A DNA stretch of 33,522 nucleotides from an uncultured Ureaplasma sp. (GTDB lineage: Bacteria; Bacillota_I; Bacilli_A; Mycoplasmatales; Mycoplasmoidaceae): NCBI GenBank assembly GCA_902766725.1, contig CACXEQ010000014.1, positions 1-33,522 of the forward strand, given 5' to 3'. A program made the translations under genes and the position numbers. The notes beneath the pieces are model-generated. The model did no database searches, had not been told where the DNA came from, and saw only the letters and a list, made by a program, of their open reading frames with translations. Shown here in pieces: positions 4,907-30,261 of this stretch. How positions within the stretch are numbered: the first letter of the stretch is position 1; every line of letters starts with the position of its first letter.

Positions 4907-5986
4907 TTAATATAAATTAAATGTTGTTTTAATAATTTTGTTAACAATTTTTTTAGATTCACAAATAATTAAATTACTAAATTGTTGATTAATACCATTT
5001 TTTGCCATTTCTATTAAAGGCAAATATGATGTAGTAGAAATTATTTCACTTTGGTTAGCAGAATTTATGAAATATCAATTATTTAGATTAAGATAAAAGT
5101 TTTCACCACATTTATAGAGTTTAATTTGTTTTGATGGTTTTTTCTTAACAAAAACAAAACCATCACCATAATCATTAGCTATGTCTAATGCAATAGCTGT
5201 TTGTTTCATGCTTTTTACCATATTGCTAGTAATCCTGCTTTTTGTTTTATTTATTGGATTACTACATGTGTTTAAAAAAATACTTGACATTGGAAAATAT
5301 TTTTCTAAGTTTTCAAAGGTTGCTGTGTCATAAATAAACCTAGAAGTATTATTAGATAAATGTTTGATTAAATTATTAAACTCTAATTGTTTTGAATAAT
5401 TAATGTCATTATCTAACACAATAACATTAAATCCTTTTTCTAAAGCTAATTTACAAATTTCGATACTGGCAAAACTAGCATTTAAAAGTAAAAAATAATC
5501 ATTTGAACGGGGGGGATTTATTTTTTTTTTATTTTTAGTTCAATCAGTTAAAATTTTATTAATAATTAGAAAAGCATTTTGAGCTTTTAGTTGTTCTAAT
5601 TTAGAAAATAAAACATATTTTTGATTAGTAAGTAAAGCATTTCAATATAAACCTGTTACATTGTTTTTTAACATATAGTATAACATCCCAATATTATTAA
5701 CAAAATTGCTTAATGTTACAGCTATTTTGTTAGTCAAAAAATGACAATCATTTTTAGTAAAGGGATTAATTTTACATATTATGTCAGATTGACTTATTAC
5801 TTTAATTTTCGTATCAAAAATTTTTGCACCTACTTTTTCATATTGTTGATCACTTATATTTAAACAAGAACCATAACCGGTTTGCACATTAACTCTTAAA
5901 CCAGTTAAGCACATTTTTTCTATTTCATTAGGTAATAAAAAAACTGCATTTGTTTTTTTATCAAAAATTAAACCTATATTTTTCAT
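4907..5986 (-). CDS. Alanine dehydrogenase/PNT-like protein lacking the dinucleotide-binding loop
   Basis: This 359-residue protein aligns along its length with alanine dehydrogenase and transhydrogenase alpha chains. Residues 31-74 (TGYGSCLNISDQQYEKVGA, then SDIICKIN) match the N-terminal domain. Residues 252-276 (ITSNMVKSMK, LDIANDYGDG) match the C-terminal motif around the catalytic Asp, here D272. The glycine-rich NAD loop expected at about 168-173 reads NASFAS, with all three glycines gone. The family Arg (near residue 13), the Lys of VKEP (here Asn74) and the His of LHLA also appear lost. The frame stays open across an A10 and a C7 tract, so it is not frameshifted as given. It sits just upstream of ileS and diverges from rpsP. 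Family assignment is from motif reading; loss of dehydrogenase activity is inferred. Confidence 0.6.
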
Positions 5987-13287: not shown

Positions 13288-13887
13288 TTAATTATTAATC
13301 ATATTGAATTCAATATAAAGATTAGATCATGGTGGAATATTATTTATTTCATCTAGATTTTTTAATTTTGGTAATTCAATAATTTTTATATTAAATTTAA
13401 CTTTCTTGGTTAATTTTAAAATTTCTAAGTATTTTTTATGATTTTGAAGATTATTTTTGTAATCATAAAAAAATAAAATAATTTTTTCTAAATTAATATT
13501 TGTGATATTTATAAAATAAAAAAAATCTTTTAACTTAAATTTAATAAAATTTGCAAAAATAATCGTTTTATCACTAAGTGAATATATTTGATTGCTGTTA
13601 TGATATATATTTGGATTTATTATGATAGGTAATTTTTTATCAATATTTCTATTTACTAAAATATTTTTTTTATTCATTTCATTTTTAACTGATTCATAAA
13701 AAATAAATGAATTATTAAAAATTTTATTGTTTTTAGATGAAGTGAAATGGTTTTCATTACTAAAATTAAAAATAATACAACCACCATATTTCTTCTCATT
13801 AATACTTGCTAGAATTAATGTTTCTAAATATTGATTAAAAGAACTATTTATATCTATCACACTAATAATTTTATTTTTCATAATCAA
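13288..13887 (-). CDS. Divergent ParA/Soj-like protein without Walker A
   Basis: This 199-residue protein is not a clear match by motif, but its pattern follows ParA/Soj. The start (KNKIISVIDINSSF) resembles KIIxVxNQKGGVGKT with the phosphate-binding loop replaced. Residues 87-113 (PIIINPNIY, SLSDKTIIFANF) resemble the Walker B strand and the following segment. Residues 136-181 (IILFFYDYKNNL, KIIELPKLKNLDEI) resemble the late ParA motif with YDxRTNL and IPRNVRLSEA. Place supports it: Bacillus has mnmG-rsmG-noc-soj near the origin, and here it follows mnmG and rsmG. The start overlaps rsmG by 17 bases. Without Walker A and with Asn where Walker B has Asp, ATPase activity is unlikely. A TGA at 13327-13329 is read as Trp. 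Assignment is by eye. Confidence 0.45.
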
Positions 13888-27440: not shown

Positions 27441-27461
27441 TTTTTGTTAATTAATATTTGT

Positions 27462-27944
27462 ATGACAAAAAATTTAGGAATGTATATTGAACAATTAGTC
27501 AATAGAACTATTTTGTTTTATGAAAAAAACAATATTGCTTTGTTGGAAAAAAGAGAAATTCCAATAAGAATAATTAAGCATATTAACATAAACACTATTT
27601 TAGGAAAATTGATTGCTAAAGGAAAAGTTGATTATTTTGGATTTATAAATAAAAAATATGTTGAAATAGAATGTAAACAAACATCATTTGATTATTTTGA
27701 TCTTAAGCATATTAAAAAACATCAAATGAATTATCTGAAAAAAATTCATGAATTGAAATGTTTGGCTTATCTATTAATATATTTCGAAAAACATGATGAA
27801 ATATTAGCTATTGATTATCAAAATTTAATTAAATGCAAAAAAATGTATAAAACTAATCTTATATGTTATGAAATCATTAAAAAAAATGGTACACTTGTAA
27901 AAATTATTTATCCTGGAATTCTTGATTTAACTAAACTTTTTTAA
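27462..27944 (+). CDS. recU: Holliday junction resolvase RecU
   Basis: The 160-residue protein is RecU, which cleaves four-way junctions in Firmicutes. The N-terminal NLGMYIEQLVNR and the catalytic region GKVDYFGFINKKYVEIECKQT (with Asp, Glu and Lys of the nuclease core), then FDLKHIKKHQ, match the family. ATG at 27462 starts the conserved sequence. A TTG at 27444 in frame is less likely. Its last 18 bases overlap the convergent isomerase gene. Length is slightly short for the family (170-200). Confidence 0.88.
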   Translation: MTKNLGMYIEQLVNRTILFYEKNNIALLEKREIPIRIIKHININTILGKLIAKGKVDYFGFINKKYVEIECKQTSFDYFDLKHIKKHQMNYLKKIHELKCLAYLLIYFEKHDEILAIDYQNLIKCKKMYKTNLICYEIIKKNGTLVKIIYPGILDLTKLF

Positions 27945-28925
27945 TTCTAATGGTAATAATTTTTTATCAATTTTTAGTCTGCTAAAATATTGATAACTAA
28001 AACAATAACCAAGTTGTAATAAATGAATATTTGGCTTAATCTGATTACTATCTATGAATGCATCAACTATTCTATTAACATTATTTGGTGTAACATTTCT
28101 TGCTCCAATGGCTAATATATTAGCCCCATATTTTTCACGAGCTGTTTTTGCTTGTTTTACATTTGAACAAATACATGATAATGCTCCTTTAAATTTATTA
28201 CATGTATTTGCTATCCCAAAGCCTGTGAAACATATAGCAATACCACAAAAAGCATTTTTAACATGTTGCATCATGGCTATAGCATATAAAGAATAATGGG
28301 TAGATTCTTGAGAAAAAGTACCAACATCAATAACATTATATTTATGATTAGTTAAGTGTTTTATGATTGTTTGCTTAATGTTATATCCGGCATGATCAGA
28401 ACCTAAAACTATAGTACGTTTACAATTAGCATTAAATTTAATAATTTTTTTACTATTTTTAAATGAATTATGCATAATAGACAATCTTGTTAAGTGCCTG
28501 CCACCTTCAAATTTTGTGCAGCAATATTTGATGATAATATCATTAATATTAGAAGCTTTAATATTGTTTAATGCCAAGATACAAATGTTCGAATTATTAT
28601 GTGCTCTTGACAAATAAGCAGATATAGGATCAATTGGTATGCTGACAACACGATTTTTTTGTTTAGAAAAGAATAAAAAAGGTAAAAATCCGTCTAGATC
28701 AATAACAAAAATTATTTTTGATTTACAAGCATTAGAAAAAACGGAAAACCAATTGTTTTTATCAAAAAAAGTAATTTTTGAAAAATTAAAAAAAGTTAAA
28801 ACATGCTTTTGAACAATTTTCTTAAGTAATATATTACGATAAAGCTGTTTGTTAATTAGTATACAAACATTAAGTTGTTTGCTATTTTCATTTAATGAAC
28901 AATTATTAATATTCATAATCAACAT
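27927..28925 (-). CDS. Fused LacA-LacB-type sugar-phosphate isomerase (RpiB/LacAB family)
   Basis: This 332-residue chain holds two RpiB/LacAB domains. Residues 19-150 are LacA-like: VIDLDGFLPF in place of the CGTG loop, SAYLSRAHNNSN (H109, N110), FEGGRH (141-144) and R147. Residues 171-310 are LacB-like: LGSDHAGYNIK (D177, H178), STHYSLY, ICFTGFG (C232, T234) and VDAFIDSNQIKP. The N-terminal half lacks the DHAG and Cys; the C-terminal half has K-Y for the active-site H-N (265-266) and lacks GGRH. In RpiB and LacAB each active site is shared between two subunits, so the halves look complementary. The reaction could be galactose-6-phosphate to tagatose-6-phosphate, or ribose-5-phosphate to ribulose-5-phosphate. 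ATGs at 28925 and 28916 are both possible starts. Domain identity is by motif; the composite site is inferred. Confidence 0.85.
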   Translation of the reverse strand: MLIMNINNCSLNENSKQLNVCILINKQLYRNILLKKIVQKHVLTFFNFSKITFFDKNNWFSVFSNACKSKIIFVIDLDGFLPFLFFSKQKNRVVSIPIDPISAYLSRAHNNSNICILALNNIKASNINDIIIKYCCTKFEGGRHLTRLSIMHNSFKNSKKIIKFNANCKRTIVLGSDHAGYNIKQTIIKHLTNHKYNVIDVGTFSQESTHYSLYAIAMMQHVKNAFCGIAICFTGFGIANTCNKFKGALSCICSNVKQAKTAREKYGANILAIGARNVTPNNVNRIVDAFIDSNQIKPNIHLLQLGYCFSYQYFSRLKIDKKLLPLELKKFS

Positions 28926-29076: not shown

Positions 29077-30261
29077 CTATTCAATAATTTCAGTAACATT
29101 ACCAGCACCAACAGTGTGACCACCTTCTCTTATAGAAAATTTAGAACCATTTTCAATAGCAACTGGAGCAATTAATTGAACAACGATTTCAGCATTATCA
29201 CCAGGCATAATCATATCAACACCACTAGCTAATTCAATAGAACCTGTTACATCAGTTGTTCTAAAATAAAATTGTGGTCTATAACCTTGATGGAATGCAG
29301 TATGTCTACCACCTTCTTCTTTCTTTAGAGCATAAATTTGTGCTTTGAATTTTTTAAATGGTTTAATTGAATTTGGTTTAGCTAATACTTGACCACGTTC
29401 TACATCTTCTCTATTTACACCACGAAGCAAAATACCTGCATTATCACCTGCTAAAGCTGAATCTAATGTTTTTTTAAACATTTCAATTCCTGTAACAACA
29501 ACTTTTTTTGTAGGTCTCAAACCAACGATTTCAACTTCATCATTCATTTTTATTGTTCCACGTTCAACCCTGCCAGTTACCACAGTTCCACGTCCAGTAA
29601 TTGTGAAAATATCTTCAATAGGTAATAAAAAAGGTTTATCAATATCTCTAACAGGATCAGGAATATATGTGTCAACAGCATCTAATAATTCTTGAATCTT
29701 AGCCTCTCATTGTTCTTCGCCTTTTAAAGCACCAAGTGCAGAACCAAAAATCATTGGAGCATTATCACCATCAAATCCATATGAATTTAGTAAATCACGA
29801 ATATCCATTTCCACTAATTCTTTTACTTCTTTGTCAGTAACAACATCACATTTGTTAATAAAAACAACAATTTTAGGAACCCCTACTTGTCTTGCTAATA
29901 AAATGTGTTCCCTTGTTTGGGGCATTGAACCATCAGAAGCTGCAACAACTAAAATTGCTCCATCCATTTGGGCAGCTCCAGTAATCATGTTTTTAACATA
30001 ATCAGCATGTCCAGGACAATCAACATGGGCATAATGTCTCTTTGCTGTTTCATATTCAACATGTGTAGTATTAATAGTAATTCCTCTTGCTTTTTCTTCA
30101 GGTGCTGAATCAATAGATCCATAGTCTCTTGCTTTAGCTAAACCTTTTTTAGCAAGATATGTACAAATAGCTGCTGTTAAAGTTGTTTTACCATGATCAA
30201 TATGTCCGATAGTTCCAATATTAACATGAGTTTTTGCACGATCAAATTTTCCAATTGCCAT
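29077..30261 (-). CDS. tuf: Elongation factor Tu
   Basis: The 394-residue GTPase delivers aminoacyl-tRNA to the ribosome. The G motifs are [25 protein letters not shown] and SALGALKG. The body matches EF-Tu domains II and III ([42 protein letters not shown]). In the usual GHVDHGKTT, Val is Ile here, a conservative change. One TGA at 29706 is read as Trp. AGGAG lies about 13 bases before the ATG. It stands alone between a terminator and a divergent promoter region, not in the str operon. Confidence 0.98.

Follow-up and report, generated by a model that had tools for sequence, protein, structure and literature searches.

The window, by which we mean the whole 33,522-nucleotide stretch of DNA from an uncultured Ureaplasma sp. 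that was analysed, contains a gene in which a LacA-type domain and a LacB/RpiB-type domain are joined in one chain. We consider it roughly two-thirds probable that a lacA-lacB gene pair fused in the common ancestor of one group of Candidatus Hennigella (Mycoplasmoidaceae) species, and that the product is a single-chain LacAB with one composite active site that now acts as a ribose-5-phosphate isomerase.

Gene and reading frame

The fused LacA-LacB-type sugar-phosphate isomerase gene (27927..28925, minus strand) is a single open frame of 332 aa, with orthologous fusions in two other species. Pfam LacAB_rpiB (PF02502) matches the protein in two stretches, in both halves (E 1.9e-42), and the score of 144.9 bits against a cut-off of 24.7 places it in the RpiB/LacAB superfamily. 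In the source organism TGA encodes Trp, and most genes of the window, including ileS, polC, tuf, tsf, frr and rpsD, are full length only with table 4. There is no TGA within the fusion gene, so tables 4 and 11 give the same frame. The sequence-only reading had described two RpiB/LacAB domains in one 332-residue protein, which both the Pfam matches and the same frame in two other species bear out. The residues it had named, H109, R143, D177, H178 and C232, are all found in the protein, together with N110, H144 and R147 in the N-terminal half and Y211 and T234 in the C-terminal half. Elsewhere in the window, an alanine-dehydrogenase-like protein with a weak match in its C-terminal domain is encoded at 4907-5986 (minus strand), between ileS and ribosomal protein genes, and has a counterpart with only 28% identity in G003, a genome of the same genus. 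A 199-aa frame beside an rsmG-like gene (13288-13887, minus strand) has no Pfam match.

Distribution and gene neighbourhood

Within a set of 59 whole genomes, made up of the window genome (G000) and relatives, the one-chain fusion was also found in two further species of the genus: G005, the horse faecal MAG of Candidatus Hennigella equi (322 aa, 36% identity), and G002, a goat-reticulum MAG (299 aa, 34%). The genus, one of gut-dwelling relatives of the mycoplasmas, is RUG11194 in GTDB, family Mycoplasmoidaceae (PMC8957277). In all three genomes recU overlaps the fusion tail to tail by a few bases; in the window the overlap with recU (27444..27944, plus strand; Pfam RecU E 7.1e-31) is 18 bases, and G002 and G005 have the same layout. 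A PLD-domain, cardiolipin-synthase-like gene and recU are the conserved neighbours on that side. On the other side lies tuf (EF-Tu; 29077..30261, minus strand), a neighbour in G000 and G002. G003, which is without the fusion, retains the PLD gene and recU, and two unrelated frames fill the site before tuf. By eye only, one of these frames (G003:C1:287095-289012) is HNH-endonuclease-like and the other DNA-methyltransferase-like.

Could the assembly have joined two genes? The source genome is a draft assembly in 38 contigs. However, the fusion occurs in three separately assembled genomes of different species with conserved neighbours, and this independent recurrence refutes an artefact, which the sequence-only reading had named as a possible objection and to which we assign a vanishingly small probability. 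The fusion is a genuine, lineage-restricted, single-chain version of LacAB.

Among the matches listed for a sample of 298 genomes of the order, a LacA-type gene is present in about 40 genomes, and in all except the three fused cases it is a separate frame adjoining lacB. No further fusion was found among the matches listed in a sample of 395 genomes of the class, where the two best matches outside the genus are separate lacA and lacB genes. The search for the same architecture that had been proposed earlier thereby yielded two more species and, outside the genus, none in about 640 sampled genomes (among the matches listed). Several candidate fusions were rejected: G065, with a frame of 308 aa, has separate lacA and lacB; G392 and G556 have separate genes; in G011 and G020 the frame is an RpiB with a C-terminal extension; and in G013 it is TsaC/YrdC-RpiB. 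In the last case (L064:883-1953) a TsaC/YrdC domain is joined to RpiB in one 356-aa frame. This protein resembles the fusion in that an RpiB-family domain of a mycoplasma relative is joined to another domain, but its partner is an unrelated domain and there is no second isomerase domain. TsaC/YrdC and RpiB are neighbouring genes in G011 and G020, where the C-terminal extension of RpiB is long, and RpiB matches in frames of 340-375 aa in several genomes of the class may resemble TsaC/YrdC-RpiB. The lacB frames of two genomes (L123 and L126, in G080 and G102) look broken or truncated. A first scan of genome contigs with the single protein as query gave no match, viral contigs searched for the fusion gave none, and phage records gave only unannotated partial matches. 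The earlier view that a LacA-LacB fusion was not previously known agrees with the literature searched, in which no report was found and whose coverage leaves out most subscription journals.

The N-terminal half is of LacA type

By alignment, tree and profile the N-terminal domain (about residues 18-155; 28461..28874, minus strand) is of LacA type, as the sequence-only reading had held. It falls in the LacA clade with an SH-aLRT of 99, and with home-built profiles it scores 76.9 bits for LacA against 34.9 for RpiB, the range over the fusions being 77-94 against 31-57 bits. It is without the Asp-His pair and the catalytic Cys, and has the His-Asn and Arg-His-x-x-Arg of LacA. In an alignment of 11 sequences two groups of residues are invariant: His109-Asn110 (28596..28601, minus strand), equivalent to LacA His96-Asn97, which act in ring opening and intermediate binding, and Arg143-His144 with Arg147 (28485..28499, minus strand), equivalent to the phosphate-binding LacA Arg130-His131 and Arg134 (PMC3755991). 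An independent tandem duplication of RpiB as the source of this domain was rejected on account of the LacA-type stretch IDxxxxxF(M/L/I)xxSKxK and the placement in the tree.

The domain is RpiB-like at one position of the pocket, with Leu in place of Met92. The phosphate-binding residue of RpiB at beta5/alpha5 is Lys in G002 and G005 and Asn120 in the window protein. Since this Lys also occurs in several LacA proteins whose LacB keeps Arg39, we dropped a restored phosphate-binding residue in the LacA half as an argument. An inter-domain linker (about residues 154-170; 28416..28466, minus strand) runs from the last helix of the N-terminal domain to the first strand of the C-terminal domain in the AlphaFold2 model.

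The C-terminal half is a mosaic of LacB and RpiB

The C-terminal domain (about residues 171-295; 28041..28415, minus strand), whose best Pfam stretch is 172-294, has Asp-His, Cys and Thr; Lys-Tyr replaces the His-Asn of RpiB, and GGRH is absent. Asp177-His178 (28392..28397, minus strand) is invariant in the alignment and corresponds to LacB Asp8-His9, both essential in LacAB (PMC3755991). Genome comparison identifies Cys232-Phe233-Thr234 (28224..28232, minus strand) with the catalytic base loop Cys65-Gly66-Thr67 of LacB; at the Gly66 position the window protein has Phe, G005 Trp and G002 Gly, and Phe or Trp beside the catalytic Cys is unique to the first two among the surveyed sequences. At the position of LacB Arg39, which binds the hexose phosphate, all three fusions have Ser (Ser208; 28302..28304, minus strand). 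The C-terminal tail (27930..28040, minus strand) does not contain the W..G.Y motif of LacB helix alpha7, and in a comparison of tails from 42 genomes the fusions are the only intact genes from which this motif is absent; beyond residue 295 the AlphaFold2 model has only short helices.

The domain thus combines LacB-like and RpiB-like positions. In LacB numbering, Asn73 and Tyr99 (3/3 fusions) and Thr40-His41, before Tyr211 (2/3), are LacB-like, while Ser7, Ala10, Gly11 and Ser39 are RpiB-like. The sequence-only reading had it that this half reads like LacB. That it is of LacB/RpiB type, and groups with LacB in the best tree (SH-aLRT 92), stands, but LacB over RpiB is not certain: an AU test does not reject grouping with RpiB (p 0.48), and home-built RpiB profiles score somewhat higher than those of LacB (117 vs 113, 117 vs 103 and 128 vs 101 bits), as do the NCBIfam RpiB models. 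The equivalog cut-offs of NCBIfam are reached by neither half (C-terminal domain 64-97 bits on LacB models with cut-offs of 234-325; N-terminal domain 32-34 bits on LacA models with cut-offs of 164-243), which is weak evidence because the unfused LacB proteins of relatives tested also fall below them.

These scores and the AU test, together with the RpiB-like SDHAG and Ser39, would also suit a partner swap, in which an RpiB was joined to LacA and then lost its His-Asn and GGRH while still isomerising ribose-5-phosphate. We think this unlikely, given the pairing with LacB in the best tree, the LacB-like Asn73, Tyr99 and Thr40-His41, and the preserved lacA-lacB gene order. In addition, LacB loop 10-12 is back to the RpiB-like Ala-Gly not only in all three fusions but also in the intact, unfused LacB of G022 and G249, which are likewise without Arg39. 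A LacB that has reverted toward RpiB is therefore the simpler account.

A predicted composite active site

In the Lactobacillus rhamnosus LacAB the site is built from Asp8, His9, Arg39, Tyr42, Cys65 and Thr67 of LacB and His96, Asn97, Arg130, His131 and Arg134 of LacA; one of the two sites works and the other is dead, and LacB helix alpha7 is considered to promote formation of the LacA-LacB heterodimer (PMC3755991). Apart from Arg39, the window protein keeps all of these residues on the expected halves. The complementary loss of active-site residues that had been claimed from the sequence is thereby upheld, with residues split so as to suggest one composite site. However, this arrangement is inherited from LacAB, as separate LacA and LacB chains already work in this way (PMC3755991). 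New relative to LacAB, judging from the sequence, are the covalent link, an altered pocket and the missing alpha7.

With 18 aligned sequences AlphaFold2 gave a two-domain model with a pLDDT of 89.4 and a pTM of 0.88 (with three sequences the model was poor, pLDDT 68). The best PDB match of the model is 4lfk chain B (34% identity), also the top structural match of the C-terminal domain, followed by RpiB structures; 4lfk chain A matches as well (TM 0.82 by target). The pTM suggests a defined arrangement of the two halves, and from this value and homology we infer that H109 and R143 meet D177 and C232. The chain would fold as a covalent LacA:LacB heterodimer with its halves docked as in LacAB. 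Asp177, His178, Cys232 and Thr234 of the C-terminal domain and His109, Asn110, Arg143 and Arg147 of the N-terminal domain would form the composite site, and the mirror-image site would be without catalytic residues. With the covalent link in place, the protein may no longer need alpha7, by which LacA is normally held to LacB.

The fusion is like LacAB, the D-galactose-6-phosphate isomerase (EC 5.3.1.26; PDB 4LFK-4LFN), in its predicted composite site, one working and one dead per pair, and in having the same catalytic residues on the same halves. It differs in being one chain rather than two, in having Ser for LacB Arg39, in lacking the alpha7 motif and in coming from a genome without the lactose PTS IIA. 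With RpiB (E. coli 2VVR, M. genitalium 6MU0) it appears to share the fold, the chemistry, the SDHAG loop, Ser at position 39 and a likely metabolic role, but RpiB forms homodimers in which both sites are identical and work and each subunit has a full catalytic set, whereas the fusion has two unlike domains, one predicted site, and residues divided between the halves.

Long branches in the tree and the Phe or Trp adjoining the catalytic Cys could be signs that the gene is decaying or non-functional. We regard this as very improbable, since all catalytic residues are retained across species at 34-36% identity, the frame is open in all three fusion genomes and the predicted fold is confident.

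Metabolic context and the likely substrate

The non-oxidative pentose phosphate pathway needs a ribose-5-phosphate isomerase. In the three fused genomes the fusion is the only gene of the LacAB/RpiB family found; RpiA, a separate RpiB and the lactose PTS IIA were not found in them. These genomes are MAGs of 60-82% completeness, and the chance that a second isomerase is missing from all three by incompleteness is about 1% if losses are independent, which is possible though unlikely. Among six genomes of the genus, transketolase and ribulose-phosphate epimerase (Rpe) are present in exactly the three that carry the fusion, and fusion, transketolase and Rpe are all absent from G001, G003 and G004; presence of the fusion therefore tracks the non-oxidative pentose phosphate pathway. 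All six encode PRPP synthetase. In the three unfused members the isomerase appears to have been lost along with transketolase and Rpe, with PRPP synthetase retained, so their ribose phosphate must have another source, perhaps nucleoside salvage.

The sequence-only reading implied a galactose-6-phosphate isomerase. That reading is not supported, because a role as ribose-5-phosphate isomerase fits better with genomes that are without the lactose PTS IIA, RpiB and RpiA, that keep transketolase and Rpe, and in which LacB Arg39 is lost. The fusion might still isomerise galactose-6-phosphate or another hexose phosphate in a tagatose-type pathway, merely in fused form: its N-terminal domain is clearly LacA, two of the three fusions have the LacB-like Thr-His before Tyr211, and in several related genomes the unfused LacAB adjoins lactose PTS IIA or class II aldolase-like genes. 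We find this improbable, slightly more so than the partner swap, as the fusion lies beside recU, away from sugar genes, the PTS subunit is in no fused genome, and the transketolase and Rpe that remain would otherwise have no isomerase. Gene content makes ribose-5-phosphate isomerase the most likely role: with lactose uptake and RpiB gone, the fusion would serve the non-oxidative pentose phosphate pathway by interconverting ribulose-5-phosphate and ribose-5-phosphate. Among relatives without RpiB and transketolase, LacAB lies beside a ROK-kinase-like gene (by eye) at L017, L021 and L026 (in G050, G045 and G055), and its substrate there may be yet another sugar.

The loss of Arg39 was compared with gene content in 42 LacA-bearing genomes. 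Of the eight that have transketolase but neither lactose PTS IIA nor any isomerase besides LacAB, six have lost Arg39, against none of the remaining 34 (Fisher p 5e-6); the two exceptions, G037 and G194, have this gene content yet keep Arg39. Every genome with a separate RpiB, 25 in the survey, keeps it, as do the genomes of family f11, in which LacAB is present and RpiB and transketolase are absent. Since the tree needs only about three independent changes, and the association is not significant once kinship is counted, we take it as suggestive and not proven. In an alignment Arg is found here in E. coli RpiB too, so that Arg39 is no strict marker of hexose substrates.

Implications for enzyme evolution in reduced genomes

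We see an even chance that the fuller history holds, in which the fused form of a lactose-pathway heterodimer evolved anew to be the sole ribose-5-phosphate isomerase of the cell, the link replacing the pairing helix, the pocket reverting toward RpiB, and an asymmetric chain with one site functionally replacing a symmetric enzyme with two. Such fusions will probably be annotated just as 'RpiB/LacA/LacB family', which hides their architecture and likely role. The fusion offers a heterodimeric enzyme as a natural single chain, whose two halves can be mutated separately at their active-site residues. The matching changes at one phosphate-binding position suggest, in a way that can be tested, how specificity may switch between hexose phosphates and pentose phosphates. 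The fusion would also be an instance of one enzyme taking over the function of another in reduced genomes, where LacAB appears to replace RpiB in several lineages.
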